Below, in pieces: positions 5,047 to 61,951 of a DNA stretch of 64,000 nt (the stretch's first letter is position 1; each line of letters begins with the position of its first letter). Location of the stretch: contig NZ_AP025592.1 in NCBI RefSeq assembly GCF_023169965.1, positions 496,001 to 560,000 of the forward strand, given 5' to 3'. Both the position numbers and the translations under genes were made by a program. This DNA is from Anaeromyxobacter paludicola (GTDB lineage: Bacteria > Myxococcota > Myxococcia > Myxococcales > Anaeromyxobacteraceae). The notes under the pieces are model-generated. The model was given only the letters and a program-made list of their open reading frames with translations, searched no databases and had not been told where the DNA came from.

Positions 5047-7296
5047 ATGAAGAAGCTCGTCGAAGCGCTCGCCTCGTTGAAGCTGGCCGTGGTTCTCCTC
5101 GTGCTGCTGCTCCTCGGCCTCTCGGCCGGCACGATCGTCGAGTCCTCGCGCGGCGCCGAGGTGGCGGGAAAGCTCGTCTACTACTCCTGGTGGTTCCTCG
5201 GGCTCGAGGTGGTGTTCCTCGTGAACGTCGCCTGCTCGATCGTGCACCTGTACCCGTGGGGCAAGCCGCGGATCGGCTTCCTCGTGACGCACGGCGCGAT
5301 GGTGGTGATCCTGGCCGGCGCCAGCGCCTCCTACTTCCTGAAGCAGGAGGGGCAGCTCATGCTCTGGGAGGGCGAGACCGGCAACCAGCTCGTGGCCCGC
5401 GAGGCCGACGGCGGGGCCGCGGTGACCCTCCCGTTCGCGGTGCAGCTCGAGCGCTTCCGCATCGACCACTACCCGGGCACCATGCGCCCCTCGAACTTCC
5501 GCAGCGACGTGCGGATCATCGACTCGACCGCCGGCGATCCCTTCCCGGCCGCCATCTGGATGAACCACCCGTTCGACCACCGCGGCTGGCGCTTCTTCCA
5601 GTCGAGCTACCAGCAGCAGGGCGGCCGCTCCGCCACCGTGCTCTCGGTCTCGAAGGATCCCGGCGAGCCCATCGTGTTCGTCGGCTACGGGCTCCTCGTC
5701 CTCGGCATGTGCCTCGTGCTCGGCACCCGCATCTCGCAGGCCCGCGCCAAGAAGAAGGCGCTCGAGGCGCTCGGCGCCCTCGCGGCCCTGGCGCTCCTCG
5801 GCGTCGCCCTCCCGGCGCACGCCGCCGATCCGGGCCTGGAGCAGCTGCGCCGGCTGCCGGTGCAGCACGACGGCCGGGTGATGCCGCTCGACACGCTCGC
5901 CCGCGAGCAGGTGGTGGCCGTGACCGGCGAGCGCGCCTTCCAGGGGTCCGACCCGGTGCAGACCGTCGTCTCCTGGTGGGCGGAGCCGCAGGCCGCCGCC
6001 CAGGCGCCGGTGGTGAAGCTCGGCCACCCCGACCTCGCGGCCGCCGTGGGCGCCCCGGGGATGACCCACGCCTCGTTCGCGCAGATCGTGAACAGCCAGG
6101 CGGCGATGCAGCTGCTCGATCAGGCCCGCGAGGCCGCCGCCTCCGGCCGGCCGCGCCAGGGCGTGCTCTCCGCCGCCGAGAAGCTCGAGGAGCGGCTCGT
6201 GGCCATGCAGGCCATCCTCCAGCGCGAGGTCATCCGCCCCGTGCCCCCGCCCGGCGACGTCACCCAGCGCTGGGGCGTGCCGCGCGTGGGCGGGGCGGCA
6301 GAGCTCACCGCGCTCGCCGCCGGCCCCCGCCTCCAGGGCTGGCCCTCGGCCGCCGAGATCGACCGCGAGATCACCTACAACCAGGTGCGCCCGACGCGGG
6401 TGGCCTGGATCGTCCTGGTGCTGGCGCTCCTCGTGTCCATCTACGCCTGGAGCGGCCGCAGCAAGCTGCTCGACGGGATCGCGCTCGCCGGGCTCGTCGC
6501 CGGCTTCGCGGTGATGACCTGGGGCATCGGCACCCGCTGGGCCATCGCCGGCCGCATTCCGGCCTCGAACATGTACGAGTCGCTCCTGTTCCTGGCCTGG
6601 GGCGTGGGGCTCTTCGCGGTGGTCGCCTTCGCGCTCATGCGCAACCGGCTCGTGGTGCTGAACGCCAACGCCATGGCGGCGCTCACGATGCTCCTCACCG
6701 ACCTCCTGCCGATCGACGGCTTCGTCCACCCGGTGCCGCCGGTGCTCTCCGGCACGCCCTGGCTCGCCATCCACGTGCCCATCATCATGGTGAGCTACTC
6801 GGTGCTGGCGCTCGGCGTGGTCATCGCGCACATGCAGGTGGGGTTCACCATCTTCTCGCCCCGCCGCGCCGAGCTCATCGAGCGCATGGCGGACCTGCTC
6901 TACTGGTACATGTTCGTGGGCTCGATCCTGCTCATCGCCGGCATCCTCACCGGCTCGATCTGGGCCGCGTCGTCCTGGGGCCGGTACTGGGGCTGGGATC
7001 CGAAGGAGGTCTGGTCGCTCGTCGCCTTCCTCGCCTACATGGCCATCGTCCACGGCCGCTTCGACAAGCTCATCGGCAACTTCGGCGTGGCCGCCATCAG
7101 CATCGTGGCCTTCCAGACCATCCTCATGACCTACCTGGGCGTGAACTTCGTGCTCACGACCGGCATGCACTCCTACGGCATGGGCGACTCGCCGGTGGTC
7201 ACCTGGATGATCGTCGTGGCCCTCGCCGAGATCGCGTTCCTGGTGATCGGCTGGGCCGCGCACCAGCGGCAGCAGAAGGCGCTCGCGGCGGCGTGA
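5047..7296 (+). CDS. Fused CcsB-CcsA (ResB-ResC) cytochrome c synthase
   Basis: A 749-residue membrane protein that fuses the two System II cytochrome c maturation subunits; these carry haem to the outer face of the membrane and attach it to CXXCH apocytochromes. The N-terminal ~230 residues are ResB/CcsB-like, with membrane helices and an external domain. A middle segment of about 170 residues is largely soluble. The C-terminal ~350 residues are CcsA, with the tryptophan-rich haem-handling motif W-G-R-Y-W-G-W-D-P-K-E-V-W-S-L near residue 640. Candidate haem-ligand histidines are seen in A-I-H-V-P and G-M-H-S-Y-G. This is probably the general synthase of the cell, because a second, split synthase lies at 49-57 kb beside multiheme cytochromes. 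The stop codon overlaps the next gene's GTG by 4 bp. Confidence 0.93.
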   Translation: MKKLVEALASLKLAVVLLVLLLLGLSAGTIVESSRGAEVAGKLVYYSWWFLGLEVVFLVNVACSIVHLYPWGKPRIGFLVTHGAMVVILAGASASYFLKQEGQLMLWEGETGNQLVAREADGGAAVTLPFAVQLERFRIDHYPGTMRPSNFRSDVRIIDSTAGDPFPAAIWMNHPFDHRGWRFFQSSYQQQGGRSATVLSVSKDPGEPIVFVGYGLLVLGMCLVLGTRISQARAKKKALEALGALAALALLGVALPAHAADPGLEQLRRLPVQHDGRVMPLDTLAREQVVAVTGERAFQGSDPVQTVVSWWAEPQAAAQAPVVKLGHPDLAAAVGAPGMTHASFAQIVNSQAAMQLLDQAREAAASGRPRQGVLSAAEKLEERLVAMQAILQREVIRPVPPPGDVTQRWGVPRVGGAAELTALAAGPRLQGWPSAAEIDREITYNQVRPTRVAWIVLVLALLVSIYAWSGRSKLLDGIALAGLVAGFAVMTWGIGTRWAIAGRIPASNMYESLLFLAWGVGLFAVVAFALMRNRLVVLNANAMAALTMLLTDLLPIDGFVHPVPPVLSGTPWLAIHVPIIMVSYSVLALGVVIAHMQVGFTIFSPRRAELIERMADLLYWYMFVGSILLIAGILTGSIWAASSWGRYWGWDPKEVWSLVAFLAYMAIVHGRFDKLIGNFGVAAISIVAFQTILMTYLGVNFVLTTGMHSYGMGDSPVVTWMIVVALAEIAFLVIGWAAHQRQQKALAAA

Positions 7297-44430: not shown

Positions 44431-45567
44431 CTAGCGCGGGTCCTCGGTGAGCGAGTTCGAGTCGGCGTTGTGCACGCCGTGGCAGGTGGTGCAGCGGACC
44501 TGGTTGCTCGAGTCGAACATCAGCTTGTTGGTGGCGAGCGGGTCGGCGCCGCCACTCCCCTGGACCGCGCCGTTCACGTCGAGCGGCTGCGGCACGCCGC
44601 CGGTGGCGCGGTCGTAGCTCTGCGCCAGGGTGACCCCGGGGCCGGTGGGGTGGCTGTAGGTGATGCCCGACGAGGTGTCGCAGGAGTCGCCGCCGCCGGT
44701 GGTGGCGCCGGAGCTGCCCTGGACGCACGCGGCGGTCTGCACGCGGTCCCGGTGGCAGTCCTCGCAGAGCGCGCTGTTGAGGTTCGAGGTGCGCAGGAAG
44801 GAATTAGAGACGGTGAACATCTTCCACTGGTCGCCGGCGACGAAGGACCCGGCGAACGTGACCGTGACGGTCGGGCCGGTGGCGTCGCTGTCGAGCGTCA
44901 CCGGGCTCGCCGTGCTGGCCGCGGCGGTCCAGGAGACGCCGTTGTCGTAGGAGGCGACGTAGGTGGCCGTGCCGGTGGCGCCGCCCGCGGAGATCCGGAT
45001 GATGTAGGCGCGGGGGCGCGCGCCGCTGCGCGCGGCGGTCGCCGCCACCACCGAGGTGAGCGTGAGGGTCCCGGTGCCGGTCCCGGCGGTCCGGGTCAGG
45101 AGGGAGCCCGCCTGGAGCTTCGCGTCGGGCGAGAAGACGTGCTGCGTCGCGCCGAGGGCGTTGGTGGTCGAGCCGTCGTGCTGGTCGTGACAGGTGGAGC
45201 AGGTGACGACCCCGCCCTGATCGAGCGCCGCGGCGAGCGCGGCGTTGTTCGGCGGCTTGGCGCCGTGGAGCGGGTTGGTCGCCGGGGAGTCCCAGCGGTG
45301 CGAGTGGCCGCCCGCGCCGGGGACCGCCTCGTTCTGGGCCGTCCAGGGGAAGTTGCGCCAGGTGCCCACGCCCGTCTGGCTGTGGCAGCTGAAGCAGAGG
45401 TTGGAGTTGCCGTACTGCGAGGTCAGCGCGCCGCCCTGGGCGCTGTGCGCGATGTGACAGCTCGTGCAGGTGGTCTGCGTCGAGGCGTCGTGGGGCGCGT
45501 CGAGCGCGACGGCGGTCGCGGCGAGGAGGAGGGTGGCGGTTCCGGCGAGCAGCGGGCGGCGCGTCAT
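44431..45567 (-). CDS. Exported five-heme c-type cytochrome with inserted beta domain
   Basis: A 378-residue secreted cytochrome with a signal peptide (residues 1-21: M-T-R-R-P-L-L then a Leu/Ala core). Five CXXCH haem sites are C-T-S-C-H (~34), C-F-S-C-H (~57), C-S-T-C-H (~122), C-E-D-C-H (~270) and C-T-T-C-H (~357). Between sites 3 and 4 lies a gap of ~145 residues with a beta-rich region (T-G-T-L-T-L-T-S, Y-V-A-S-Y-D-N-G-V-S-W-T, F-V-A-G-D-Q-W-K-M-F) resembling the sandwich inserts in the large cytochrome of this locus. Motifs such as P-H-D-A-S, H-S-A-Q-G and S-H-P-T-G-P-G are typical of multiheme cytochromes with His-rich distal ligation. Its ATG overlaps the preceding surface-protein stop by 4 bp. 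It probably relays electrons in the periplasm or at the cell surface. Confidence 0.9.
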   Translation of the reverse strand: MTRRPLLAGTATLLLAATAVALDAPHDASTQTTCTSCHIAHSAQGGALTSQYGNSNLCFSCHSQTGVGTWRNFPWTAQNEAVPGAGGHSHRWDSPATNPLHGAKPPNNAALAAALDQGGVVTCSTCHDQHDGSTTNALGATQHVFSPDAKLQAGSLLTRTAGTGTGTLTLTSVVAATAARSGARPRAYIIRISAGGATGTATYVASYDNGVSWTAAASTASPVTLDSDATGPTVTVTFAGSFVAGDQWKMFTVSNSFLRTSNLNSALCEDCHRDRVQTAACVQGSSGATTGGGDSCDTSSGITYSHPTGPGVTLAQSYDRATGGVPQPLDVNGAVQGSGGADPLATNKLMFDSSNQVRCTTCHGVHNADSNSLTEDPR

Positions 45568-48500
45568 GGCGCACTCCCTTGAGTGGCGAGGACGGTGACG
45601 GTCACGGCCGCGGGCGCGCTCCGGAGGCGCCCGTCGTCCACCTCGAGCTCGAACCCGTAGCGGCCGGGCCGGAGGGGGCGGAAGGAGGGGGTGGCCGACG
45701 TCGGGTCGTCGAGGAGGACCCACGGGCCGCTGGTCTGCGTCCAGCGGTAGCGCAGGAAGTGGCGGTCGGGGTCGTAGCTCCCCGTGCCGTCGAGCGAGAG
45801 CGAGGTGCCGGCGAGCGCCGGCGCCGGCCCCGCGGCCGCCGCGACCGGGAGCCCCTGCCCGGCGGCCGCGCTGGTCGCCCGCAGGGCCACGCGGGCCGGC
45901 AGCCCGGGCACGCCGCCCTCGGAGACGGTCAGCTCGAAGACGTACGCGCCGGGAGAGAAGGGCACCACCGTGGCGACCGCGCGGTCGGCGTCGGTGAGCC
46001 CGGCGGCCGGGCCGGAGACCTGCCGCCAGGCGTAGGTGAGGCCGTTCCCGGCGGCGCCGGTGCTCGACGCGCCGTCGAGCGTCACGGGCTCGCCCGCGGT
46101 GGCGGTGCCCGTGACCGGCGCGATGGCGGCCTGGGCCAGCGCTCCGCCCGGACCGGCGTAGACGTCCACCCGGGCCGGCGGCGAGCGGAGCGGGCCGGCG
46201 ACCAGGGTCAGCTGGAAGGCGTAGGCGCCGGACAGCGTCGGGGTGAAGGTCGGCGACGGACCGTCGGCCCCGGAGAGCACGACCGGCGTGCCCGCCACCT
46301 GGACCCACTGGTAGGTCACGGCGCCGGGGACGAAGCTGGCCGAGGCGTCGAGCGTGACCGGCGCGCCGACGGCGGCGGTCACCGGGCTCACCACCGAGGC
46401 GGTGGGGCTCTCGCCGGCGGCGCCGAGGACGAGGAGCGGCGCCTCGGCGGTGGCGCGCGCGCCGGCCGGATCGGTGGCCGCGAGCTGGAAGGCGAAGAAG
46501 CCGGGCTGCGCGAGCTTCACCGAGAGGGTGGCGCCGGCGGCCGCGCCCATCAGCGGGGCGCCGGAGGACTGATCCCAGGCGAAGCCGAGCGCGTCGCCGT
46601 TGGCGTCGCTGGAGAGCCGGCCGTCGAGGGTGGCGCGGCTCCCGGCCCGGAGCACGGCCACGCGGCCGGCGTCCGCGCGGGGCGGCACGTTGCGAATGCT
46701 GGCCTCCAGCACCGCCGGGGCGCTCGTCGCGGTCCCGCAGGTGGCGACGCCCTGGAACTGGTAGCGGGCGGTGGCGCGCCCCACGAACGAGGGCGAGAGG
46801 GTGTCGGCGCCGCGCAGCGTCACGGCCGGTCCGAGCCGCTGCTTCCAGCTCACCTTGCAGCTCGCCGAGCCCGAGCGGACGGAGGCGGCGAAGCGCACCA
46901 GGCCGGGGTCGCTCACCTTCGCCGGCGGCACGATGAGCGCCGGCCTGGTGTCGGCGGGGGTGCTCTGCGGGGCGTACGGACCGTCGGCGAGCCGCGGGTT
47001 GGTCCCGAGCTTGTACTCCGCCAGGTTGGTGAGCCCGTCGCCGTCGAGGTCCATGAGCGCGTCGCCCGCCCAGTTCGGGTTGAGCCCGTTCTTGAGCTCC
47101 CACCAGTCGGGCATGCCGTCGCAGTCGGAGTCGCCCGGGCAGGCCGGGAGGGGGTGGGCGGCGCCGTACCGCTCGAGCGTGCCGGCGCCCTGGTTCAGGA
47201 CGACGACGTCCTGGTTCGGCAGGAGGGCCACGTCGGAGGGCTGCTGCAGCTGCCCGGCCTGCGTCCCGAACTGCCCCAGGGTGGCGACGAACGCGCCGTT
47301 CGAGCTCACCACCTGCACCTTGCCCTGGAAGATGTCGGCCAGGTACAGGAGCCCGTTGGCGTCGGTGGCGATGCCGCCGACCCGCGTGACCTGCCCCGGG
47401 CCGCTGCCGAAGCCGACCGTGCTCAGGAGGTAGGTGCCCGAGAGCGAGAAGGCGTGCGCCACCGGGCCGAGCTCGTTCGAGGACTGCGCCACCCAGAGGA
47501 CGCCGCGGGGACCGTCCACGGCGAGCGCCACCGGGCTCAGGAGCGGATTCGCCCCGGCCTGCGTCAGCGCGAGCGCGACCGTCCCGTTGGCGCGGAAGGC
47601 GCGGACGCGGTTCATGCTCCGCTCGGCGGCCCAGAGCAGGGCGCTGGCGGGGTCGTAGGCGAGGGCCACGGCGATCCCGCTCAGCAGCTGGGTCCGGATG
47701 ACGCGGCCGCTCGCCGGGTCGATGGCCAGCAGCTTGGAGTCGTCGGTGGAGACCATCAGCTGGTCGTTCGCGTAGGCCACGGCGACCGGACGTCCGGGCA
47801 GGGCGTAGTTGCCCATGAGGCGCCCGTCGCGCGTGACCGCGAAGAGCTGCTTCGTCATGCCGTCCACGACGTAGAGGTCGCCGCTGGGCGCCACCGCGAC
47901 GCGCTGGGGGGCGCCGAAGGTGGACTCGAGGTGACCCTCGTAGATCGCGAGCACCACCGGCAGCGAGAAGGTGCTCGAGACGGTGACGCCGGCGGCGTTC
48001 GTCACGGTGACGGTGACGCCGTAGCCGCCGGGCGCCGTGGGCGCGGTCCAGGTCGCGGTGGCGCCGCTCGCCAGCAGGGTGCCGCCGGTCGAGGTCCACG
48101 CGTAGGAGAGCGAGCCGCCGCTCGGGTCGTGGGCCTGGATGGCGAGCGTGACCTTGGTGCCCGGCAGCACCTCGCCGGCGGGGCCGGAGACCTCGTCCAC
48201 CACGGGAGGCGGCGCGGTGACGACCGTCGTGACCGTCACGGTCATCGGGACGAGGGCCCAGGCGTTGCCGCCGTACAGGCCGACGTCGTCGTCGATGGCG
48301 TCGCAGGTGATGGTGTAGCTGCCGGGGGCCGGGGTGGACCAGACGATCGTCGCGGAGGCGGAGGTCGCGGGGGTGACGTCCACGGTGGCGACGGTCCCGC
48401 CGCCGGGCAGCGTCCCGCCCGACACCGTGAACTTGAACTGGCGGACGTTGCCGCCGTCCACCTCGTGGGCCGAGCACTGGACGTTGACCGAGCCGTTGGC

Positions 48501-48671
48501 GGGGACCGGGTTCGCCGCCACCTGCACCCCGTCGATCGTCGGGCCGGTGTTGCGCTTCTGCAGCGCCGCGGCTCGGCCGGGGAACGCAACCGCGAAGACG
48601 GCCAGGATCAGGAAAGCGCGAACAGGGGCACGGGGGCTCACGGTGGATGCCATATGCAAATGATCGGCCAT
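45564..48671 (-). CDS. Secreted NHL/TSP3/PKD-repeat surface protein
   Basis: A ~1035-residue exported protein. The signal peptide core is F-L-I-L-A-V-F-A-V-A-F, ending A-A-A near residue 37. It has PKD/Ig-like repeats in residues ~45-210 and six or so NHL beta-propeller repeats in ~215-465 (L-Y-V-V-D-G, L-L-A-I-D, L-Y-L-A-D, D-V-V-V-L-N). A calcium-binding TSP3/EF-like stretch follows near 485-525 (D-S-D-C-D-G-M-P-D-W-W-E, D-L-D-G-D-G-L-T-N). Then come about five PKD-type repeats up to the C-terminus (L-D-G-x-x-S, Y-x-W-x-Q-x-x-G, G-x-Y-x-F-x-L). It has no haem motif. The start is uncertain: ATG at 48671, ATG at 48653, or TTG at 48674. It probably acts as a surface scaffold or adhesin for the cytochromes, since it is translationally coupled (4-bp overlap) to the five-heme gene. 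Confidence 0.85.
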   Translation of the reverse strand: MADHLHMASTVSPRAPVRAFLILAVFAVAFPGRAAALQKRNTGPTIDGVQVAANPVPANGSVNVQCSAHEVDGGNVRQFKFTVSGGTLPGGGTVATVDVTPATSASATIVWSTPAPGSYTITCDAIDDDVGLYGGNAWALVPMTVTVTTVVTAPPPVVDEVSGPAGEVLPGTKVTLAIQAHDPSGGSLSYAWTSTGGTLLASGATATWTAPTAPGGYGVTVTVTNAAGVTVSSTFSLPVVLAIYEGHLESTFGAPQRVAVAPSGDLYVVDGMTKQLFAVTRDGRLMGNYALPGRPVAVAYANDQLMVSTDDSKLLAIDPASGRVIRTQLLSGIAVALAYDPASALLWAAERSMNRVRAFRANGTVALALTQAGANPLLSPVALAVDGPRGVLWVAQSSNELGPVAHAFSLSGTYLLSTVGFGSGPGQVTRVGGIATDANGLLYLADIFQGKVQVVSSNGAFVATLGQFGTQAGQLQQPSDVALLPNQDVVVLNQGAGTLERYGAAHPLPACPGDSDCDGMPDWWELKNGLNPNWAGDALMDLDGDGLTNLAEYKLGTNPRLADGPYAPQSTPADTRPALIVPPAKVSDPGLVRFAASVRSGSASCKVSWKQRLGPAVTLRGADTLSPSFVGRATARYQFQGVATCGTATSAPAVLEASIRNVPPRADAGRVAVLRAGSRATLDGRLSSDANGDALGFAWDQSSGAPLMGAAAGATLSVKLAQPGFFAFQLAATDPAGARATAEAPLLVLGAAGESPTASVVSPVTAAVGAPVTLDASASFVPGAVTYQWVQVAGTPVVLSGADGPSPTFTPTLSGAYAFQLTLVAGPLRSPPARVDVYAGPGGALAQAAIAPVTGTATAGEPVTLDGASSTGAAGNGLTYAWRQVSGPAAGLTDADRAVATVVPFSPGAYVFELTVSEGGVPGLPARVALRATSAAAGQGLPVAAAAGPAPALAGTSLSLDGTGSYDPDRHFLRYRWTQTSGPWVLLDDPTSATPSFRPLRPGRYGFELEVDDGRLRSAPAAVTVTVLATQGSAP

Positions 48672-48674
48672 CAA

Positions 48675-48876
48675 CCGGGAGTGGCGCGGAACGCGTGTCA
48701 GTAGCCTAAGTGGCTGATAATTGGCGAGTTAGTTCGGCTGACGCGACGCGCACCCGGAGAGCGGCCGGGTGAGTTCCCGCTTATGGGGTAATTCACCCAG
48801 ACCACCTCCCACCACCACCGCTCACTCCCTGCTGCCGGCCGCCGCGAGCCGGGGCCCCGGAGCGCGCCGGCCCGGC
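48675..48876. other. AT-richer spacer within the cytochrome locus
   Basis: These ~200 bp between the lipoprotein and the surface-protein gene hold no gene. Around 48700-48740 the sequence is unusually AT-rich for this genome (AAGTGGCTGATAATTGG), so an internal minus-strand promoter for the surface protein and five-heme cytochrome is likely. No convincing -35/-10 pair can be assigned. Confidence 0.4.
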
Positions 48877-49425
48877 TCAGGGCGCGGCCGGCGGAGCCGT
48901 TCGCGCGGGGGCCTGGTGGGCCAGCCCCGAGCCTCTCTTGGGCTCGAAGTCGGGGCGCGGGATGGGCTTCTCGGTGTCCGGGTCGTAGTACTGGTTCCAG
49001 GGCACGGTCACGCTGCGGACCTTCCAGCGCCCCTCCTCCTGGAGCAGCTCGTACTCCACCTTCATGTCGGCGAGGAACTCCGGCCCGGGCAGCGCGCCCG
49101 GCGCGATGGGCCGATCGTGGTACCGCCAGCGCTCCTCGGTGGCGACGGTCATCCGGTCGTTCCCGGGCCGCTTCACGTCCTTCACCTCGAGGCGGAGCAG
49201 CTTCGACTCGAGGACCACCTGGCTCTCCTTCTTCAGGTCCACGAGGGCGGCGATCTTCCGCGCCTCCTTGGCGACCGCCACCTCCCGCAGGTGCGAGGGA
49301 TCGTTCTGGCCGTAGGCCGCGACGACCACCTCGTTGTAGTGGCGCACCGCCTCCTCGCCCTCGCGGCGGGCGGGCGAGCAGGCGAGGCACGCCAGGAGGC
49401 CCAGGCGGGCGATGGTTCGCGTCAT
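48877..49425 (-). CDS. Small lipoprotein of the cytochrome locus
   Basis: A 182-residue predicted lipoprotein. The signal sequence R-L-G-L-L-A-C-L-A-C ends at a lipobox (L-A-C) near residue 16. The mature domain is alpha/beta with E-A-V-R-H-Y-N-E-V-V-V-A-A-Y, V-D-L-K-K-E-S-Q-V-V-L, and T-V-A-T-E-E-R-W-R-Y-H-D-R. It also has V-E-Y-E-L-L-Q-E-E-G-R-W-K-V-R-S-V, the shape of an NTF2/SnoaL-like cone domain. Its ATG overlaps the ResB stop by 4 bp, so it is translated with the split cytochrome synthase. It could chaperone apocytochrome or haem outside the inner membrane; that is inference from position only. The C-terminus is a disordered Ala/Pro tail. About 200 bp of non-coding sequence separates it from the surface-protein gene. 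Confidence 0.75.
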   Translation of the reverse strand: MTRTIARLGLLACLACSPARREGEEAVRHYNEVVVAAYGQNDPSHLREVAVAKEARKIAALVDLKKESQVVLESKLLRLEVKDVKRPGNDRMTVATEERWRYHDRPIAPGALPGPEFLADMKVEYELLQEEGRWKVRSVTVPWNQYYDPDTEKPIPRPDFEPKRGSGLAHQAPARTAPPAAP

Positions 49426-50648
49426 TCCTCTCCGTCTCCTTCCACGGACGCGGCGCCCTCCCAGTCGGAGCGCAGCGCCTCTCCCCCCCGCTGCACGAAT
49501 ACCAGACCGGCCCACGGTTCGCCCTCGCCGCCGAGCCGGGCCACGCCGGCCGGGACGGCGAGCAGCGCCGAGCCGGCCAGCAGGAGCAGGAACGACGCGA
49601 GGACGCCGGGCAGGCCCGGGTCCCGGCTGTACTTGTACTCTCCCCAGCGATCGACCCGGGCCAGGCGGGCGCCGGTGGGGCCGAACGGCGCCGCGTCCGA
49701 CACCAGGCGCGCCCCCTCGGCCGTCTCGAACCGCACCGAGAGCCGGCCGGTCCCCGCCTGGTCGTGGACGTCGCGCTCGGACTCGGCGACGAAGGTGCCG
49801 CGCCCGAGCATCGGGTCGTCCACCCCCACCACGGACCGGTGCTCCCCGGCCTCCAGCAGGTCGAGGACCGTGTAGCGGCCGTCGGGCCACTCGAGCCGGA
49901 GCGCGAGCCCGGTGGGGATGGCCTGGAAGAAGTCGATCCCCTCGAACGTCACGCCGGCGGCGCGGTCGAGCGTCGCCGTGAGCCGTCCGGCGCGCGAGCG
50001 GAGCCCGAGCCGGCTGCGGCGATCGATGACGTAGCCCGCCTGCCGCTGGAAGGGGTCGAAGGCCGCCAGCGTGGCCTCCACCGCGGGGGGCGACTCCGGC
50101 GCCAGCGGGCCGCGCTCGCGGCCGAACACCACCCCGGGCTGGTCGAGGCTCACGGCCTCGCCGCTGGCCAGCCGGAAGAGCCCCTCGTCGTGGAAGAGCT
50201 GCTGGACGGCCACCGACGCGAGGAGGCCGAGCAGGCCGAGGTGCAGGATCCAGCCGCCCCAGAACCCGGCGCGCCAGCGGACGAGCGCGTCGCCCCGCCG
50301 CGCGAAGCCGCGGGCGCGCAGGAAGGACTCCAGGTCCTGGCCCGGGCGGGCGGGGAAGGGCGCCGCGCCGGGCGGCAGGGCCCCCCGGCTCGCGGCCAGG
50401 CACCGGCGCCAGCGCGGGAGGGCGCAGGCGGCGGTGCTCGCGAACAGGAGGGCGTTCCCGGCGAGGAACGGCCAGGACGAGAAGGGCCGATCGAGCCCGG
50501 TCGCGGCCGCCCAGCCCGGCGCCGGTGCCGACCCCCGGGCGAAGCTCGCCCACGCGCCCACCCCGCACCAGGCCGCCAGGAACGCGATGAGGCCCAGCGC
50601 CAGCCGCGGGGAGCGCAGCCAGCCGAGGACGTGACGGAGAACTGCCAT
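49422..50648 (-). CDS. Stand-alone ResB/CcsB cytochrome c biogenesis protein
   Basis: A 408-residue membrane protein of the ResB family, the partner of CcsA in System II haem attachment. Membrane segments fall near residues 15-38 (L-A-L-G-L-I-A-F-L-A-A-W-C), 58-77, 128-148 (G-W-I-L-H-L-G-L-L-G-L-L-A-S-V) and 345-365. The large external domain between the last two contains G-I-D-F-F-Q-A-I-P-T-G-L-A-L-R-L, typical of ResB. The His in W-I-L-H-L-G may be a haem ligand. It lies 33 bp after the giant cytochrome gene in the same transcript, and the matching CcsA is divergent on the far side of that cytochrome. It is separate from the fused synthase at 5047-7296 and clearly divergent in sequence from its ResB half. 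Confidence 0.88.
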   Translation of the reverse strand: MAVLRHVLGWLRSPRLALGLIAFLAAWCGVGAWASFARGSAPAPGWAAATGLDRPFSSWPFLAGNALLFASTAACALPRWRRCLAASRGALPPGAAPFPARPGQDLESFLRARGFARRGDALVRWRAGFWGGWILHLGLLGLLASVAVQQLFHDEGLFRLASGEAVSLDQPGVVFGRERGPLAPESPPAVEATLAAFDPFQRQAGYVIDRRSRLGLRSRAGRLTATLDRAAGVTFEGIDFFQAIPTGLALRLEWPDGRYTVLDLLEAGEHRSVVGVDDPMLGRGTFVAESERDVHDQAGTGRLSVRFETAEGARLVSDAAPFGPTGARLARVDRWGEYKYSRDPGLPGVLASFLLLLAGSALLAVPAGVARLGGEGEPWAGLVFVQRGGEALRSDWEGAASVEGDGEE

Positions 50649-50681: not shown

Positions 50682-53600
50682 CTAGCCGTGGGTCGAGGAG
50701 TTGCTGCAGCCGCAGTACTGCTCGTTGTCGAAGTAGCCGTTCGTGGGCACGGAGCGGATGAAGAGGCGCTTGCTGCTCACCGACTGGTCGTAGGGGTAGA
50801 CGTTGTCGCTGAACCCGGTGCCGTTGCCGTTGTTGAGCATGCCGATGCTCGAGGAGCCGTGCGGGATGGCGGTGTGGCAGTCGAAGCACTTGATGTTGCC
50901 GGCGTGGTCGCCCACGCGGTGCTTGGGGAAGCGGCTCTCGAAGGTGCCGCTCGTCGGGAAGCTGGCGTCGTGGCAGTTGGCGCAGAAGGTGCCAGCGGGC
51001 ATGCCTGAGCTGGTGTTCTTCACGTTCTCGTCCCAGGTCCGGTTCGGCCCCTTGAGCATGAACTTGTAGGAGGAGCCGTGCGGGCCGCCCGCGTCGTTGG
51101 GCGAGTCGGCCTCGTGGCAGTCGCTGCAGGTCATCACGCTCGACATGTTCCAGGGGGGGAGGATGTTCTGCGTCACCGGCCAGTACTTCCCGGCGGTCTT
51201 CGGGTCGCCGATGCTGTTGGGCGAGCCGTAGCCGGTCTGGGTGGTGCGGGAGGCCAGCACCGGGTGGTACCCGGCGTTCTTGGTGTTGAACTCCTGCAGC
51301 TGATCCGTGTGGGTCATCTGGATCGAGTAGGCCGCCGCGGAGGCCGTCGCGCCGAGGTAGGGCGTGGCGAGCGTGAGCGAGGTGGCGCTCGCCACGCTCG
51401 CGATCCTGTAATAGGTGCCGTCGGCGGAGTTCTTGATGAGCGCCCCGACGTAGCGGTTGGGCGTGACCGTGGTGCGCCAGGTCGTCCCCTGGCCGGTCAC
51501 CGCGGTGGAGTTCTGGGTGAAGGTGGCCGTGCCGACGTAGTAGCTGAAGCCGGAGGCCGACACCGGCGGCGTGGCGCTGCCCCACCAGTAGTTGGAGTGG
51601 CACTTGAAGCAGAGGTACGCCTCGAGGTCCGAGTTGTAGACCAGCTTCTTCTTGGCCATGTCGGTCGCGGTCGGCTTGGCGCCGGCGGCGACGTTGGTGA
51701 AGTCCGGGACCACGCCCCAGGCGCCGTCGATGGACGGGCCGGCCTTGTTGCTCATCTGCTCGATGCGGTAGGCGACGTTGGTCTGCGCGGTGGCGGGGCC
51801 GGCGCCGGTCAGCGTGAGCGTGGTCGGGCCGCTGACGCTCGCGATGGTGTACCAGACGGCCGTGCGGCTGGTGTCGAGCGTGTTGGAGCCGAACTTGATG
51901 CGGGCGCCGTTGTAGAAGGAGGTCCAGCGGGTGTCCACGCCGGTGACGGCCGTGCCGCTCGCCGCCACGGAGACCGTCCCGGTGATGTAGGAGTGGCCGC
52001 CGCGCTTGGCGAGGTGGGTCACGTGGCAGTCGAGGCAGCTCGCGTGGCGGGTGCCCGGCCCGTTGCCGAGCTGGTTGCCCCAGGCCGCGGCGTTGTACTC
52101 GGCGTCGCCGAGCTGGTGCTGGGTGTCGCTGCCGATGGGGTGCGCGTAGAACTTGTTCGCGGGGGAGGCGAGGTCGTTCGAGCGGTTCACGCCGATGACG
52201 CCGTTGCCGTGGCAGTTGAAGCAGAGGAAGACGGCCTGGCCGTCGGCGCCCGGCTTGAGCGAGCCGGAGAGCAGCTTCGGGTAGTCGGAGTAGTGGACCG
52301 CGCCGAAGGGGTAGGTGTCGTCGGACGGCTGGCGGTCGGCCCGGTCGGAGTGGCACTTGGTGCAGTTGCGCCGGAACCGGGAGCCGTCGCGCAGGGTGTA
52401 GCCCCAGGTGCCCCAGACCACGTCGTCGTCGAAGTCGTGCGCGGTCCCGGCGTAGGTGCTCTTGGAGATGGTGTAGCCGCCCGAGTTGATGGGCAGCTGG
52501 TGGCAGCTCGCGCACAGGCCGCCGCCGGGCTGGCTCGCGTCGAAGTCGGTGTCCGACACGTTTCCGGCGGCGATCTCGCCGTCGCTGCCGCGCGTCACCG
52601 CCCGGCTCGCGCCGGTGGTCGGGTCGCCGTAGACGCCGAAGGAGTGCGTCCAGCCGCCTGGCTCGTTGTGCCGCTTGTCGGGGTGGCACATGTTGAGGCA
52701 GGAGCGCGCCGACGGGTCGTTGACGGTCTTGAGCGGCCCGGTGGCCCAGGAGACGTTGTTGTCGGTGGCCGAGGCGTTCGTGCCGGGCACGTTGCCGATG
52801 GGGTGGCGCGAGACCTTCGCCACCGTGCCGTTCATGCGCTCCCAGATCTTCTGGTGGCACTGATCGCAGGAGTCGCCGCCGCGGCTCTCGGGGCTGAAGC
52901 CGTTCTTGTGCTTGTGGCAGTTGAGGCAGGGGGTCGTCCCGGACTTCTGGGAGTAGTGGGTGTCGGAGTTGCCGCTGTTGCGCCAGCGCGGCACCGACGC
53001 GTCCCACGGGTTCGAGGTGCGGGTGTGGCAGGTCTGGCAGGGACCGGTCCCGTCGGAGTTGATGAACGAGGCGTTCGCGGGGCTCCCGCTGTCCACGCCC
53101 GAGTCGCCGGTCGTCTTGCGGAACTGCACCGTGCGCGGGGCCTGGACGCCGTTCACGGCCGGCGGGGTGATCTGCTCCCGCAGGAGGAACGTGTTCTTGC
53201 TGCCGTGCGGCGTGTGGCAGTCCCGGCAGCCGATGGCGAAGGAGCCGTACTTGCGGCTCGTGGTCTCGGAGGAGTGGGAGCGCAGGCTGTGGCAGTCGGT
53301 GCAGATCTGGTCCGAGTTGTCGCGGACGAGGAGGCTGCCGTCGCCGGCGCGGCCCCCCTTGACGACCACGTTGACCGGCCGCGACTGCACCACGCCGGCG
53401 CTGGTCCGGGCGCAGGCGCGCAGGATGTAGCTCCCCTGCGACAGCGAGGAGACCTGCGTCTCGAAGATGCCGGCGCGCCCGCCGAGCTGGTAGTTGCCGC
53501 TCAGGGTGAGCGCCTTCGTGGTGCCGGTGCAGTCCGGGGCGGCGCCGTTGGTCGAGTACGCGTAGGAGAGCAGGTCGGTCACGCCGTTGGCGGTCGGGCT

Positions 53601-56420
53601 CCAGACGTGCACCTGCAGGCGGAAGGAGCCGCTCAGCACCTTGTTGTCGGCCGGGTTCACGATCGACACCTGCGGCAGGAGCGAGTAGCCGGCGGTGCTC
53701 CCCTCGGGGACGGCGCCGGCGACGACGGCGAAGGCGTTGCCGGTCACGGTGGACCCGGTGGCCGCGGCGGGGGCCGCGAGCGAGACGTCCGGGACCGCGA
53801 TCTGGAGCTGGAACTGCTTGCCGACGGTGGCGGCGCGCGCCGCGGCCACCGTCACGCGCAGCGTGAGGGAGCTGCCGGCGGTGAGGGTGGTGGAGAGCCC
53901 GGAGAGCACGTAGCGGGCGGCGCTGGCGTTCCAGGTGGCCACGCCCAGGATCGCCCCGGTGGAGTCGTTCGCGATCACCACGCTCGCGATGTCGGTGTCG
54001 GCGGCCGCGGGGGAGGTCGAGGCCGCGTTGGCGATGGAGATCCCGGAGAGCGTCACGGCGCTCGCCCCGGCGGTGAGCTTGGCGTAGCCGGCGATGACCG
54101 GCGCGCCGCCGCGGGTGATCGTCCCCGTGGGCTGCGTGACGGTCGCGAGCGTGGCGCTGGGCAGCGTCACCGAGGGGCCGCCGTAGACGTCGGCGCCCAC
54201 CGACCAGTTGTTGCAGGAGTCCCGGGTGAACGCCCGGTAGTAGTAGGTGGTCCCGTTCACGAGGCCGCTGTCGGCGCAGCTGGCGATGCTCCCGGAGCAG
54301 GCCACGGCGACCTTGGCGGAGAGCGCGGCGCCGGCCGCGTAGCTGGCGGTGCCCTCGCTCGGCGCCGCGTGGATCGGGGCGGTGCTGCGCGCGAGCAGCG
54401 TGTAGGCGCCGGTGCTGGTCCAGGTGACCGTCATCTGGCCGGAGCCGGGGCTCGACGCGGCGAGCCCGGTCACCGGGGACGGCGAGACGTTGTCGAGGGT
54501 GAGCGTCGCCTCGGCGGTGTCGGAGACGCGGAGGTTGGTCGCGAGCGCCTTGGTCGCGCCCACGACGCGGGCGGTGAGCCCGTACGCGGCGCCGGGGACC
54601 TCGGGGAGCAGCGTGTGCGGCTGGGGCGTGAGCTGGATCCGGTACTGCGCCGCGGCGGCCGGCGACACCGGCGCCGGGAGCGAGAGGCCGGTGAAGGTCC
54701 AGTCGTCGCCGGCGGCGGGGCGCGTCCCGGTGGCCAGGACCACGTTGTTCCCGTCGGTCAGGGTGACCGCGGCCACCCGCGGGGAGGTGCCGGCGGCGAG
54801 CCGCACGGTGAGGCCGGTGACGGTGTCGGCCGCGCCGCTGCTCGCCTGGAGGCTGAAGGCGTCGGCGAAGGTCATGCCGTCGCCGGGGCAGAGGGTAGCG
54901 ACGCTGGTCGCCGCGGGGGAGCCGTCGGCGAGGGTGGTGGTCGGGCCGGGCGTGACCGGGCCCGCGACGTTGCTCGCGCCGGAGTAGTTGCCGTAGAGGT
55001 CCACCGCGAACGCTTGGTAGTACCAGGTGCCGCTCGCCTGGGTGTCGGTGCAGCTCGTCCCGGGCTTCGCCACCACGCAGGCCACCGTACCGTTGCCGAG
55101 GGCGTTGCCCACGGCGTAGGTGGTCCCCTCGGCCGGCACGCCGGTGAAGGTGGCCGAGGCGCCGCGGACCACCACCACCTGGCTGAGGTCGCTGTTGAGC
55201 GGGTTGGTCCAGGCCAGGCTCTCCTGGTTGGTGCCCGCCTGCGCGGAGAGGCCGCTGGGCGGCGACGGCGGGAGGTTGTCCACGACGATCCGGGCGCTGT
55301 CCCCGTCGGTGAGGGTGACCGGGAGCGCGCTCGTCACGCCGTACACCACCGCGCGGACGGTCCAGGTCTTCACGGCCGGGAGCGCGGCCGAGGACTTGGG
55401 CGTCACCCGCACCCGGTACTCGGTCGCCGTGGTGGTGGCGAGGATGGCCGGGTTGAGGGCGACGTCGAAGGTGTCGAGGGCCGGGTTGGCGACCGAGCCG
55501 TACACCGTGCTGCCGCTCGCGTTCGTCACCTCCACCAGGCTCACCGCCTCGGCCGTGCCGGCGTCGAACGCCAGGGTGACGGCGAAGATGGACGGGCTGG
55601 TGTTGGAGGTGGTGGAGACGAGGAAGCCGTCGAGCAGGATGGCGCCGCTGCCGGGCGCGACCACGGTGCCGTTGGTCGCCTCCTTGGTGGCGACGTCGGC
55701 GACGGTGATGGTCCCGGAGGTGCCCTCGTCCACCACCAGGGTGCCCGAGGCGTCGCCGACCGCGCGCGAGTCGCCCACGTACATCGTGATGGAGTTGCCG
55801 GCGCTGTTCGTGACCAGCGCCACCTGCATGGCGAGGTTGGTGCCGGCCGGTGCCACGCCCGCGACCCGCGACAGGTCGGGCGTGAGGACGCCGCCTCCGG
55901 TCGGGACCGCCACCTCGGTGTAGCCCCACGGGTAGAAGAAGCCGCCCATGGCGTAGCCCAGGGTGAAGCGCACCGTGGCCGCGAGCGCGCTCACGGACTT
56001 GTTGAAGGCGAAGCGGGTTCCGCTCCCCGCGGGCTTGCCGGTGACGAGGGTGTCGGCGGTATAGGCCGTGTCGCTGATGGCGAGCAGCACCTCGTACGGG
56101 CCGCTCTGGGAGGTCGAGATGGAGGTGCCGGTGTTGCAGAGGAAGGCGCCGGTGTTCATCGCGCTGACGCGCCGCTGCGCGAGGTTCGAGGCCGTGCTGC
56201 AGCCCCAGGAGTTGTACGTGGCGCCGGCGCTGACCGTGTATCCGCCGAAGGTGCCCGTCGTGTCCGAGGGCTGCCAGCGGTAGGTCACGGTCTGGGCGGC
56301 CGCCGGCACGGCCCAGAAGGCGAGCGAGACCAGGAGCACGAGCAGGCCACGGCGAGCCGTGCTGCGAGCCGTGCATCGCGACGCGTGGAGCACCCGGGCC
56401 GGCGGAGAGAGTCGGGGCAT
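50682..56420 (-). CDS. Giant secreted multiheme cytochrome c with FN3-like N-terminal half
   Basis: A 1912-residue exported cytochrome. The signal peptide core is L-L-V-L-L-V-S-L-A-F-W-A-V, cleaved near A-A-A-Q (about residue 43). Residues ~45-1030 are beta-rich, with several Ig/FN3-like modules (one reads Y-Y-Y-R-A-F-T-R-D-S near ~730). Residues ~1039-1850 carry 13 CX2CH sites, the first C-T-D-C-H near 1039 and the last C-F-D-C-H near 1845, plus one CX3CH site (C-L-N-M-C-H, near 1240). Two ~75-residue beta-sandwich inserts (about 1477-1560 and 1620-1700) interrupt the haem series. The C-terminus has two further Cys (C-G-C-S) without His. The ATG at 56420, behind AAAGGGGCC, starts the signal peptide; upstream in-frame codons to 56537 are not conserved in type. 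It is probably a surface or extracellular electron-transfer protein. Confidence 0.9.
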   Translation of the reverse strand: MPRLSPPARVLHASRCTARSTARRGLLVLLVSLAFWAVPAAAQTVTYRWQPSDTTGTFGGYTVSAGATYNSWGCSTASNLAQRRVSAMNTGAFLCNTGTSISTSQSGPYEVLLAISDTAYTADTLVTGKPAGSGTRFAFNKSVSALAATVRFTLGYAMGGFFYPWGYTEVAVPTGGGVLTPDLSRVAGVAPAGTNLAMQVALVTNSAGNSITMYVGDSRAVGDASGTLVVDEGTSGTITVADVATKEATNGTVVAPGSGAILLDGFLVSTTSNTSPSIFAVTLAFDAGTAEAVSLVEVTNASGSTVYGSVANPALDTFDVALNPAILATTTATEYRVRVTPKSSAALPAVKTWTVRAVVYGVTSALPVTLTDGDSARIVVDNLPPSPPSGLSAQAGTNQESLAWTNPLNSDLSQVVVVRGASATFTGVPAEGTTYAVGNALGNGTVACVVAKPGTSCTDTQASGTWYYQAFAVDLYGNYSGASNVAGPVTPGPTTTLADGSPAATSVATLCPGDGMTFADAFSLQASSGAADTVTGLTVRLAAGTSPRVAAVTLTDGNNVVLATGTRPAAGDDWTFTGLSLPAPVSPAAAAQYRIQLTPQPHTLLPEVPGAAYGLTARVVGATKALATNLRVSDTAEATLTLDNVSPSPVTGLAASSPGSGQMTVTWTSTGAYTLLARSTAPIHAAPSEGTASYAAGAALSAKVAVACSGSIASCADSGLVNGTTYYYRAFTRDSCNNWSVGADVYGGPSVTLPSATLATVTQPTGTITRGGAPVIAGYAKLTAGASAVTLSGISIANAASTSPAAADTDIASVVIANDSTGAILGVATWNASAARYVLSGLSTTLTAGSSLTLRVTVAAARAATVGKQFQLQIAVPDVSLAAPAAATGSTVTGNAFAVVAGAVPEGSTAGYSLLPQVSIVNPADNKVLSGSFRLQVHVWSPTANGVTDLLSYAYSTNGAAPDCTGTTKALTLSGNYQLGGRAGIFETQVSSLSQGSYILRACARTSAGVVQSRPVNVVVKGGRAGDGSLLVRDNSDQICTDCHSLRSHSSETTSRKYGSFAIGCRDCHTPHGSKNTFLLREQITPPAVNGVQAPRTVQFRKTTGDSGVDSGSPANASFINSDGTGPCQTCHTRTSNPWDASVPRWRNSGNSDTHYSQKSGTTPCLNCHKHKNGFSPESRGGDSCDQCHQKIWERMNGTVAKVSRHPIGNVPGTNASATDNNVSWATGPLKTVNDPSARSCLNMCHPDKRHNEPGGWTHSFGVYGDPTTGASRAVTRGSDGEIAAGNVSDTDFDASQPGGGLCASCHQLPINSGGYTISKSTYAGTAHDFDDDVVWGTWGYTLRDGSRFRRNCTKCHSDRADRQPSDDTYPFGAVHYSDYPKLLSGSLKPGADGQAVFLCFNCHGNGVIGVNRSNDLASPANKFYAHPIGSDTQHQLGDAEYNAAAWGNQLGNGPGTRHASCLDCHVTHLAKRGGHSYITGTVSVAASGTAVTGVDTRWTSFYNGARIKFGSNTLDTSRTAVWYTIASVSGPTTLTLTGAGPATAQTNVAYRIEQMSNKAGPSIDGAWGVVPDFTNVAAGAKPTATDMAKKKLVYNSDLEAYLCFKCHSNYWWGSATPPVSASGFSYYVGTATFTQNSTAVTGQGTTWRTTVTPNRYVGALIKNSADGTYYRIASVASATSLTLATPYLGATASAAAYSIQMTHTDQLQEFNTKNAGYHPVLASRTTQTGYGSPNSIGDPKTAGKYWPVTQNILPPWNMSSVMTCSDCHEADSPNDAGGPHGSSYKFMLKGPNRTWDENVKNTSSGMPAGTFCANCHDASFPTSGTFESRFPKHRVGDHAGNIKCFDCHTAIPHGSSSIGMLNNGNGTGFSDNVYPYDQSVSSKRLFIRSVPTNGYFDNEQYCGCSNSSTHG

Positions 56421-56734
56421 GTGGCCCCTTTCGTGCAAATATCGTTCCGCCGACCCGTGACCAGGGCTCGTGCCGAGCTCCGTGCGCCGGGGCGAGGCTG
56501 CCGCGGGCTTGCGAGGCCGGCGAGCCCGCGGAGTCACAAAGGGTGAAGGGAGAAGGGCGAAAAAGACTTACCGCGTTAGGGCTAAATCGCCCAGGGGTGG
56601 GGGTACTGACCCATGTGAGCTAGTCCGCCGCCCCCGCAGGCGCCGGTCCCGGACGACCCCGGGTCACGGGGACCGGCTCTGCCTCACGGGAGCCAGACTT
56701 GCGGCTCGCGCCCGTGGCGGTCTATGCAGGGCCC
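56421..56734. other. Divergent regulatory region between giant cytochrome and ccsA
   Basis: The largest gene-free stretch, 314 bp, holds the promoters of both flanking genes. It contains a perfect 9-bp inverted repeat (CCGCGGGCT 56501-56509 / AGCCCGCGG 56523-56531) in the cytochrome leader. A second hairpin in the ccsA leader pairs CCGGTCCC (56643-56650) with GGGACCGG (56669-56676). Between them, 56536-56590 is AT-richer (AAAAAGACTTACCGCGTTAGGGCTAAATCGCC) and probably carries the core promoters. No known riboswitch core was recognised. Confidence 0.5.
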
Positions 56735-57547
56735 ATGCAGAGCCTTACCTTCTGGGCAGCCGTCACCTGCTACGCTGTCGCCTCCGTCCTGTTCTTCCTC
56801 TCGGTCGCCCTGCGGGGCGTCCGGACCGGTCTGGCGGCGAGGGTCGTGGTGGCGGTGGGTCTGCTGCCGCACGCGGTCTCCCTGGCCCTCCGCTGGGCGG
56901 AGGTCGGCCACGGGCCGTACAGCACCCGGTACGAGGTGATCTCGAGCAACGTGCTGGTGCTGGTCGCGGCCTGGCTCGGCGCGAGCGCCTTGGCGCGAGG
57001 CCTGCGCCCGCTCGGCGCCTTCGTCGCTCCCGTCGCCTTCCTGGCCATGGGCTGGGCCGTCATGACCTTCGGGGTGAAGGCCGAGGTCCCGATCATCTTC
57101 AAGTCGTACTGGCTCGCGCTGCACATCGGCTTCGCCAAGCTGTTCGGCATGAGCATGATGCTGTCCGCCGGCTGCGCCGCCGCGTACCTCCTCCGCACGC
57201 GCCCGTCGGCCGCGCCCGCCCGCAGGGAGGCCGCGGCGCGGCTCGGGCGCTACGCGCACCAGCTCCTGCTCGTGGCCTTCTTCCTGCTCGGGGTGATGAT
57301 CGCGGCCGGCGCGCTCTGGGCGCACCAGTCCTGGGGCCGCTACTGGGGCTGGGATCCCATCGAGACGAGCTCGCTCGTCACCTGGCTCGTCCTCGGCATG
57401 ATCCTGCACCTGGGCTCGCTCCACGGCTGGTCGGGGCGGCGCCTGGCCTGGCTCAACTTCGTCGCCCTCGGCTTCGCCATCGTGACCGTGTACGTCGTCG
57501 CGATGGTCGTGCCGACCATCCACAACTCCTACCTGATCGCTCGCTGA
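56735..57547 (+). CDS. ccsA: Stand-alone CcsA cytochrome c biogenesis protein
   Basis: A 270-residue polytopic membrane protein with about eight helices, the haem-handling half of a System II cytochrome c synthase. The tryptophan-rich motif is intact: W-G-R-Y-W-G-W-D-P-I-E-T-S-S-L near residue 203. Candidate haem-ligand histidines are in W-L-A-L-H-I-G-F (about 131) and V-P-T-I-H-N-S-Y near the C-terminus, where the fused CcsBA at 5047 has G-M-H-S-Y-G. It is preceded in frame by GTG/TTG-type codons to 56699, but the ATG at 56735 (behind GCAGGG) opens the first helix. Divergent placement next to the giant cytochrome, and a stand-alone ResB on that gene's other side, make these two a functional pair. 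Confidence 0.93.
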   Translation: MQSLTFWAAVTCYAVASVLFFLSVALRGVRTGLAARVVVAVGLLPHAVSLALRWAEVGHGPYSTRYEVISSNVLVLVAAWLGASALARGLRPLGAFVAPVAFLAMGWAVMTFGVKAEVPIIFKSYWLALHIGFAKLFGMSMMLSAGCAAAYLLRTRPSAAPARREAAARLGRYAHQLLLVAFFLLGVMIAAGALWAHQSWGRYWGWDPIETSSLVTWLVLGMILHLGSLHGWSGRRLAWLNFVALGFAIVTVYVVAMVVPTIHNSYLIAR

Positions 57548-57589: not shown

Positions 57590-60500
57590 TCAGGGCAGCA
57601 GGTAGTCCACCTGCAGGCCGATCCAGTCCGTCCAGAGATCGCTCGGGATCCCGGCGCCTCCGGGCGGCGAGGAGGGCTGGCTCGGCACCGCCAGGAGCGC
57701 GATCCGCCCCTGCTGGACGAAGTTGCCGGACAGCGACGGCAGGGGCGCGTCGATCGCCCCCGGCGCCGCCTCGGTGCCGGAGGTGGTCCCGAGCGCGACC
57801 CAGGTCCCGGCGATCCAGTCCCAGGCCAGGAGGTCCACCCCGTAGGTCGCGGCGCCGCTCGCCAGCCCGCCGGCGGTGAGGTCGCCGCGGCCGGCGCCGG
57901 CGTAGCTCGCCGAGGCGCCGGTGAGCGTCGCCTGCGCGTCCACGGCGAAGAGGGCGACCTGGGCGGCGGTGGTGGCGGACGGCGTCCGGCGATCGAGCTG
58001 CCAGAGATCGCCGAGGTCGAGGTTGAGCGGCAGGTCGCCCGGCAAGGTCGAGGCCGAGCCGCCGAGGAGCGCGAGCGCGCCGGCGGCGGGGCTCCAGGCC
58101 AGGGCCGCGGCGGTGCGCGGGCCCGGCGAGCGGAGCCCGCCGGCCGGCAGGGCCGGGCGCGTCCAGCTCGCGCCGTCCCACTCCCAGGCCGCGCCGTCGT
58201 CGTCCACGAGCACGGTGCGGCTGGCGAGGGGGTCGTAGGCGAGCGCGGGCGAGCCGGAGGCCGGCGGGCTCCCGGCGGGCGCCCGCGAGGTCCAGCCGCC
58301 GGCGCCCAGCTCCCAGGTGTCCTGGAGCGGCTGGGCGCCGCCCCCGAGCCCGCCGAAGAGCACCGTCACGCCGCGGCGGCCGTCGAAGGCGAGGCCGCCG
58401 TACGCCCGGGCCGGGGGCGGGCTCGCCGGCTGGAGCTCGGTCCAGTCGTTCCCGTCCCAGGTCCAGGTCTCGGCGAGCAGCGCGCCGCTCGCGTCCACGC
58501 CGCCGAAGAGCACCGTCACCCCGCGCGCCGCGTCCCAGGCGAGGGCGTGCCCGCCGCGGGCGCTCGGCAGGTGGGCCGGGGCGCGCTGCTGGAAGGAGGT
58601 CCCGTCGAGCTCCCAGGTGGCGCAGGTCGGGCTCGCGTCGGCGGTGCAGCCGTGGAGCACCGTCACGCCGCGGGCGGCGTCGAAGGCCATGGCCCCGGCC
58701 GCGAGGACCGGCACGTCCGCCGTGCCCTGGTGCCAGCCGGACGCGTCGAAGGTCCAGGCGTCGCTGGCGGCGGGGCTCGGATCGGTGCCGTTGCCGTGCG
58801 CGAAGAGGGCCCGCTGGGTCCCGTCGAAGACGAAGGGGGCCCGGGCGCGCGCCGCCGGGACCGCGGGCGCGGTGGGATAGCCGGACCAGGCGTTCGAGGC
58901 GTAGCTCCAGACCGCGAGCTGGTCGGGGAGCGCGTCGCCGGCGAGGAGCACCCGGGGCACGTCGGCGCCGAGGGTCCCGGGGTACCAGGCGAGCACGTGG
59001 GAAGAGCGGGGGCCGGCGGGGAGGTCCGGCCCCTGCGTCCAGCGCGAGCCGTCGAACCGCCAGGTCTCGAGCCCCACGCTGGAGGGCTGCCCGCCCTGCA
59101 GCACGGCCACCCCCGCGTTGGCGTCGTAGGTCATCGCGGCGCCGCTGCGCGCGGTCAGGGTGGGCGGGACCGGCTGCTGCGTCCAGCCCGCGCCGTCGAA
59201 CTGCCACGAGTCGCCGAGCCGGTCGCCGGCGGCGCCCAGGCCGCCGAAGAGCACGCAGCGCTGGACCGTCTGCACGTAGGCCATGGCGGCCCCGGAGCGG
59301 GCCGGCGGCGCGGGCGCCACGGGGACCTCCGACCAGCCGCCGGCGAGATCGTAGGACCAGGTGTCGCCGAGCGCCCCGGCGGCGCCGGTGCCGCCGAAGA
59401 GCACCACCGCCTGCCGCATCACGTCGAGGGCGAGCGAGGCGTCGAAGCGGGCCGGGGGCGCCCCCGCGAGCGCGAGCTCGGTCCAGGCGGCGCCGTCCCA
59501 GGACCAGGTGTCGCCGAGCGGCGCGCCGGCGCCGTCGAGGCCGCCGAAGAGCAGCACGCTGCCGGTCCCGAGGTCCACCATGGCGGCGTTGGAGCGCGGC
59601 GGCGGCTTCACCCCGCCCGACGGCGCCGCCGCGGTCCAGGTCCCGGAGAGCGGGTCGAGCTCCAGCGTCTCGTCGAGCACCTGCGCCCCGTCCCAGCCGC
59701 CGAAGACCACCAGCCGGCCGCGGAGCGAGTCGAGGGCGCCGGCGACGTGGGCGCGCGCCCCGCCGGAGAGGAGGCTCCAGCCGCCGCCGAGGACGGCGCC
59801 GGGCACCGCCGCGGGCGTGGGGATCACGACCCCGTCCCGCAGCGCCGCGGCCGCCGCGTCGGCGGCCGAGACCTCGTCCCCGAGGAGGAGCGCGTCGCCC
59901 GGGCCGGCCTGCCGGGGGTCGAAGGGGGCGCTGAAGGCGTAGAGCGCGCCCGAGAGCGGCGTGAGCGGCGCGTGGCGGTCGCGCCCCGCCACCGTGAGCA
60001 GCGCGCTCACCCGGCGCGACAGCGCGGCCGCGGCGGTGTTGCCGGCCTTGTCGGTGGCCACCACCCGCACCCGGTCGCCCGGGACCGGGCCCACCGCCTG
60101 GTCCGCGAAGCTGCCGTCGGCGGCGGCGGGGAAGGGGGCGGCGAGCGGCGCGCCGGTGCCGGGGTGGAGGAGGTCCACCTCGCGGACCGCCAGGAAGGTC
60201 GGGTCCACGACCGCGCCGGAGAGGCCGTGCACCGCGGTCGCGCCGCCGGGCTGGAGCGCGTAGACCACGAGCGTCGGATCGATCACGGGCGGGGTCACGT
60301 CGGCGTTGAGCGCCTCGACGGCGGCGCTCGAGGAGAGGCCGCACTTGTCGGTCGCGCTCACCCAGAGCCGGGGGTAGCTCGCGCTCAGGGTGCCGACCGG
60401 GATCTCGAGGAAGCTGCCGTCGGCCGCCGCCGCGCTCCCCTGGGCGACGAGATCGGCGCCGGGGGGGAGGGCGGGCGAGGTCGCCACGTCCACGGTCGCC

Positions 60501-61858: not shown

Positions 61859-61951
61859 GCGGGGCGGGCCTCCAGGCGGGCATCTTAGCCCATCTGGGAG
61901 GAGGTTTGCCCCTGCAAGGGTCCCGCGAACGTGGGGGAAATCGCCCACCCG

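Follow-up and report, generated by a model that had tools for sequence, protein, structure and literature searches.

The giant multihaem cytochrome encoded in the DNA analysed here (the window, a 64-kb stretch spanning positions 496001-560000 of the complete 4.59-Mb chromosome of Anaeromyxobacter paludicola) carries at its sixth haem site a CX3CH motif, and we have established that this motif is conserved among homologues, that histidines covary with it, and that the flanking ResB/CcsA synthase genes form a cassette with the cytochrome independently of the cysteine spacing. We consider it likely that site 6 is a true c-type haem site that has been conserved since ancient times and that the cassette synthase serves the whole cytochrome, not the single CX3CH site.

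The open frame of the cytochrome occupies 50682-56537 on the minus strand, with a likely ATG at 56420 and a Sec signal peptide, followed by an N-terminal half of about 1,030 residues that is free of haem motifs and then by the C-terminal haem region. The features of the gene that matter here are as follows:

50682..56420, minus strand: giant 14-haem cytochrome (motif count, Paired_CXXCH_1 and Cytochrome_C7 domain matches, inspection of the start and signal peptide)
50874..53303, minus strand: haem region, sites 1-14 (motif scan)
52683..52700, minus strand: site 6, CX3CH, reading C-L-N-M-C-H (motif scan, homologue alignment, paralogue comparison)
52668..52682, minus strand: P-D-K-R-H immediately after site 6, its last His being profile column 86 (homologue alignment)
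50682..50714, minus strand: conserved C-terminal cysteine pair, CGCSNSSTHG and then the stop (homologue alignment)

The protein contains exactly 14 CXnCH motifs, 13 CX2CH and one CX3CH, as the initial annotation had reported; its description of the sixth site as C-L-N-M-C-H, with three residues between the cysteines, was also accurate, as was its placing of the motif. The sole further multihaem frame in the window encodes a five-haem protein (44434-45570, all CX2CH), and a motif scan found neither CX3CH nor CX4CH in any multihaem ORF of the window other than the giant cytochrome. The PF09698 (GSu_C4xC__C2xCH) profile has no match in the giant cytochrome. Two similar beta-rich insertions lie between haem sites 10 and 11 (51756-51992) and sites 11 and 12 (51315-51542); their strands are confidently predicted within an otherwise poor structure model, they are absent from many homologues, and across the second the sequence weakly resembles that of a phage distal tail protein.

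Homologue searches covered the family, the phylum and a genome collection; a scan of genome contigs with the single protein gave no matches, but an alignment-based scan did. The initial annotation had proposed aligning orthologues to see whether CX3CH is conserved, and it is: among 38 non-redundant homologue rows typable at site 6, several of which are paralogues and hence non-independent, 30 are CX3CH and eight are CX2CH (a further row, L130, was left untyped, as its alignment at site 6 looks wrong). The CX3CH forms come from Myxococcota, Acidobacteriota, Nitrospirota, Lentisphaerota (Victivallales), Thermodesulfobacteriota (Desulfarculales) and Binatota, with the consensus RSC[V/T/L]xMCHxDHxHN. 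The CX2CH rows have the consensus RRCLMCHVDHxIF and define a sister subfamily with CLMCHVDH at site 6. Both cysteines and the histidine of the site are invariant in the two sets alike; the signal peptide and the alignment together make site 6 a conserved Cys-X3-Cys-His motif of a secreted protein. Two other positions separate the sets. The His at column 86, five residues past the motif, is present in 30/30 CX3CH rows and in 0/6 of the CX2CH subfamily, and that at column 96 in 29/30 and 0/6, respectively. On a tree built without the site-6 columns, the spacing label requires three changes; the CX2CH rows L133 and L141 are placed uncertainly, and the other six cluster with weak bootstrap support (66). 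Judged from these alignments, CX3CH is the signature of a C-terminal module of about ten haems, anciently conserved in at least six phyla, and no one-off oddity. In sister genera the same CX3CH module terminates proteins with about 60 or more haem motifs (L058, L060 and L063), many of which are CX4CH (CSNTYCH) and CX3CH (CATYCH); in L058, the PF09698 matches are repeats upstream of the module.

The chromosome itself holds seven copies of the haem module. Site 6 is CX3CH in five of them (the window copy, L049, L050, L051 and L052) and CX2CH, as CLMCH, in L053 and L054. The paralogue L049, at 3.03 Mb, is 82% identical to the window cytochrome and has an identical CLNMCH, and around site 6 the comparison of these two genes gives an omega of about 0.29, indicating purifying selection. 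The CX3CH at site 6 is neither chance nor a sequencing slip, given the motif in this paralogue, the low local omega and the typed homologues that share it.

The genes around the cytochrome, together with the fused synthase used for comparison, are:

49422..50648, minus strand: ResB-like subunit (CcsB) of a split System II cytochrome c synthase (PF05140, E 6e-9; conserved WILHLG His)
about 56735..57547, plus strand: CcsA/ResC-like subunit with an intact WWD motif (WGRYWGWD) and conserved His (PF01578, TIGR03144)
48877..49422, minus strand: small putative lipoprotein in the same operon, with its start overlapping the ResB stop (sequence inspection)
45564..48674, minus strand: NHL/PKD-repeat protein, probably of the same operon (domain matches)
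44434..45570, minus strand: five-haem cytochrome, all CX2CH, probably of the same operon (motif scan, domain matches)
5047..7296, plus strand: fused ResB-CcsA protein of the housekeeping type, for comparison

The initial annotation had held that an extra ResB/CcsA pair flanks the giant cytochrome, and this arrangement is indeed present. ResB shares the strand of the cytochrome gene and lies 33 bp downstream of its end, CcsA lies upstream of that gene and is divergently transcribed, and the word "extra" fits the eight CcsA-type (PF01578) loci of the genome. The PF05140 (ResB) and PF01578 (CcsA) scores both exceed their cut-offs, and the TIGR03144 match of CcsA falls below the NCBIfam cut-off (123 versus 187.6 bits). 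The window CcsA retains the WWD motif and the His residues shared with its relatives, and ResB its conserved His, so the pair looks functional. Downstream of ResB, 44434-49422 is probably an operon of the small lipoprotein, the NHL/PKD-repeat protein and the five-haem cytochrome. Five-haem ORFs adjoin other copies of the module too (L050, L053 and L061), and a Kelch-repeat protein with carboxypeptidase-regulatory-like domains (57590-61948) adjoins the CcsA gene.

Genes for ResB and CcsA adjoin most homologues of the module, commonly in the order cytochrome-resB-ccsA, and relative to this usual order the window CcsA has been moved to the divergent side. This adjacency does not follow the cysteine spacing: it was found for 21/27 CX3CH rows, including three with the synthase 5-9 kb away in the cluster, and for 6/8 CX2CH rows (Fisher p=1), a comparison of low power, as the CX2CH side has only eight typed rows and two of these are uncertainly placed. 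It also extends to many distant homologues (Thiobacillus, Geothrix and others) in which the site-6 region is missing and similarity to the module starts only at about site 8. In a CcsA tree, the neighbours of CX2CH and CX3CH forms interleave. One CX3CH cytochrome in the window's genome (L050, 2.185-2.199 Mb) has a different ResB/CcsA pair on each side, with CcsAs of different clades. Furthermore, inspection of gene neighbourhoods found no synthase near the CX3CH copies L049, L052, L057, L060, L110 and L111. In genome G011, a cassette-type pair, 86% identical to the pair of a sister genome, is encoded on a different contig from the two CX3CH cytochromes and, because of that location, may act in trans.

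The genomes of L110 and L111, both Acidobacteriota MAGs, each contain the CX3CH module. Their PF01578 matches proved to be CcmF and CcmC, encoded near CcmE, and split ResB/CcsA was not detected alongside this System I (CcmC/E/F) in assemblies that may be incomplete. If System I is truly alone there, the CX3CH spacing persists under a different maturation system. Proteins of Acidobacteriota G195 and G196 were considered as fused CcsBA and rejected, being identified as CcmF and CcmC.

On the likeliest reading of these results, the neighbouring ResB/CcsA pair is a System II synthase private to the cytochrome, which travels with it as a cassette and serves the whole protein, perhaps by supplying capacity or by recognizing the polypeptide. 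All 14 sites would carry haem for electron transfer, and the module of about ten haems would belong to giant multihaem cytochromes that are probably located at the cell surface. A variant of this reading, which we regard as rather unlikely, is that the synthase of the cassette, as a System II enzyme, tolerates varied cysteine spacing and loads sites that the fused housekeeping synthase loads poorly; such broadened tolerance would have been shaped by a cytochrome family accumulating CX3CH, CX4CH and an odd C-terminal cysteine pair.

The initial annotation had gone further, pairing the CX3CH site with the flanking synthase on the ground that non-standard spacing usually needs a modified enzyme. 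Part of this pairing stands, in that CX3CH is conserved and the cytochrome and ResB/CcsA form a recurrent cassette, but the part that makes the pair present because of the CX3CH site does not. The general rule stems from documented System II synthases dedicated to odd motifs, namely the Wolinella enzymes NrfI, for CXXCK, and CcsA1, for CX15CH (PMC10663686, PMC12285233), and a pair that flanks the cytochrome and recurs in homologues might be taken for another such enzyme. However, a dedicated synthase gene should be found with the odd motif and be absent with the canonical one, and the adjacency counts show no such partition, just as the CcsA phylogeny fails to separate the two kinds of neighbour and CX3CH is retained both without an adjoining synthase and in the genomes where only System I was found. 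Ten PF09698 (CX4CH) matches occur in the window's own genome, across several ORFs, and no CcsA or ResB locus lies near any of them; cytochrome genes of this type at 2.656-2.665, 2.994, 4.243 and 4.443 Mb adjoin no synthase. Finally, mass spectrometry has proven that haem is attached at both CX3CH and CX4CH in the Methanosarcina acetivorans cytochrome MmcA (PMC11024163), so such spacing need not demand a special lyase. A causal link between the CX3CH site and the ResB/CcsA pair is therefore not supported, and a modified synthase dedicated to CX3CH is quite improbable.

It is similarly improbable that site 6 holds no haem, its cysteines and histidine being structural and the protein carrying 13 haems. 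The spacing is non-standard, altered cysteine spacing can, according to a review, make attachment go wrong (PMC3601427), and conserved Cys and His could also persist for a disulfide or a metal site. However, the cysteine pair and histidine are invariant, a canonical CX2CH occupies the very same position in the sister subfamily, and the CX3CH of MmcA is loaded (PMC11024163). Moreover, the two histidines retained by CX3CH forms are absent from the CX2CH subfamily, an indication that this is a real haem site whose ligands differ. The extra residue goes with these two added downstream histidines, and the fold around the site would differ from that of the CX2CH subfamily, as probably would the distal axial ligand. 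Thus, from conservation and the covarying histidines, site 6 is probably haem-loaded with a distal-ligand arrangement unlike that of its sister forms. Structure prediction was of limited help. An AlphaFold2 model of the 882-residue haem region of the window protein had a mean pLDDT of 45 and was not used for haem sites. A further model, built for the homologous L124 module, had a pLDDT of 72 and a pTM of 0.79, and a Foldseek search with it matched no solved structure in the PDB. Sequence matches in the PDB, mostly to photosynthetic reaction-centre cytochromes, were too weak for homology to be accepted.

We consider it very unlikely that the private synthase exists for some other unusual feature, such as the C-terminal cysteine pair, taken as a possible non-canonical site number fifteen. 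In favour of this, every CX3CH row that aligns at the C terminus has a Cys there and 17/22 have a second one, and cysteine pairs of variable spacing end most members of a family that as a whole has the synthase. Against it, the pair varies greatly in its spacing and in several versions does not end in CH, which is more in keeping with a disulfide. The pair is CGC...H in the window and CX3CH to CX9CH-like or CH...C in other clades, and from these sequences it could possibly be either a disulfide cap or a fifteenth haem site.

A single odd motif turns out to be a trait of a whole family, in which a CX3CH haem site has been retained in at least six phyla. The CX2CH sister subfamily, with one residue fewer and a changed set of histidines, offers a natural experiment on cysteine spacing, haem ligation and synthase tolerance. 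More generally, finding a synthase gene next to an unusual haem motif does not in itself amount to evidence that the synthase exists for that motif.

Several known systems resemble parts of this arrangement. In MmcA, as in the window protein, a CX3CH site (with a CX4CH site besides) stands among canonical CX2CH sites of a multihaem c-type cytochrome, but MmcA is archaeal, has seven haems and is matured by a Ccm-type pathway. We know of no ResB/CcsA cassette for MmcA. ImcH of Geobacter and its relatives also has a single conserved CX3CH among CX2CH motifs (PMC6295460) and functions in bacterial extracellular electron transfer, although it is an inner-membrane quinol oxidase of about 500 residues whose CX3CH adjoins a transmembrane region. 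In Geobacter, 9.6% of haem-motif proteins have both CXXCH and CXXXCH (PMC11434368). The PF09698 family of Geobacter (CxxxxCH...CXXCH) shares the widened cysteine spacing in giant multihaem cytochromes, and its repeats lie upstream of the module in sister genera, although the window protein itself is without a match. As for the cassette, two Geobacter species each have four ResB-related genes for which co-transcription with a ResC-like gene and multihaem cytochrome genes is predicted, and thus several split System II pairs; the account of these genes in that report presents them as gene clusters and draws no link to CX3CH (PMC2700814). In Wolinella, NrfI and CcsA1 are likewise System II synthases encoded alongside an unusual cytochrome substrate; there, however, the synthase is tied to the odd motif, whereas the association in the window is independent of spacing.
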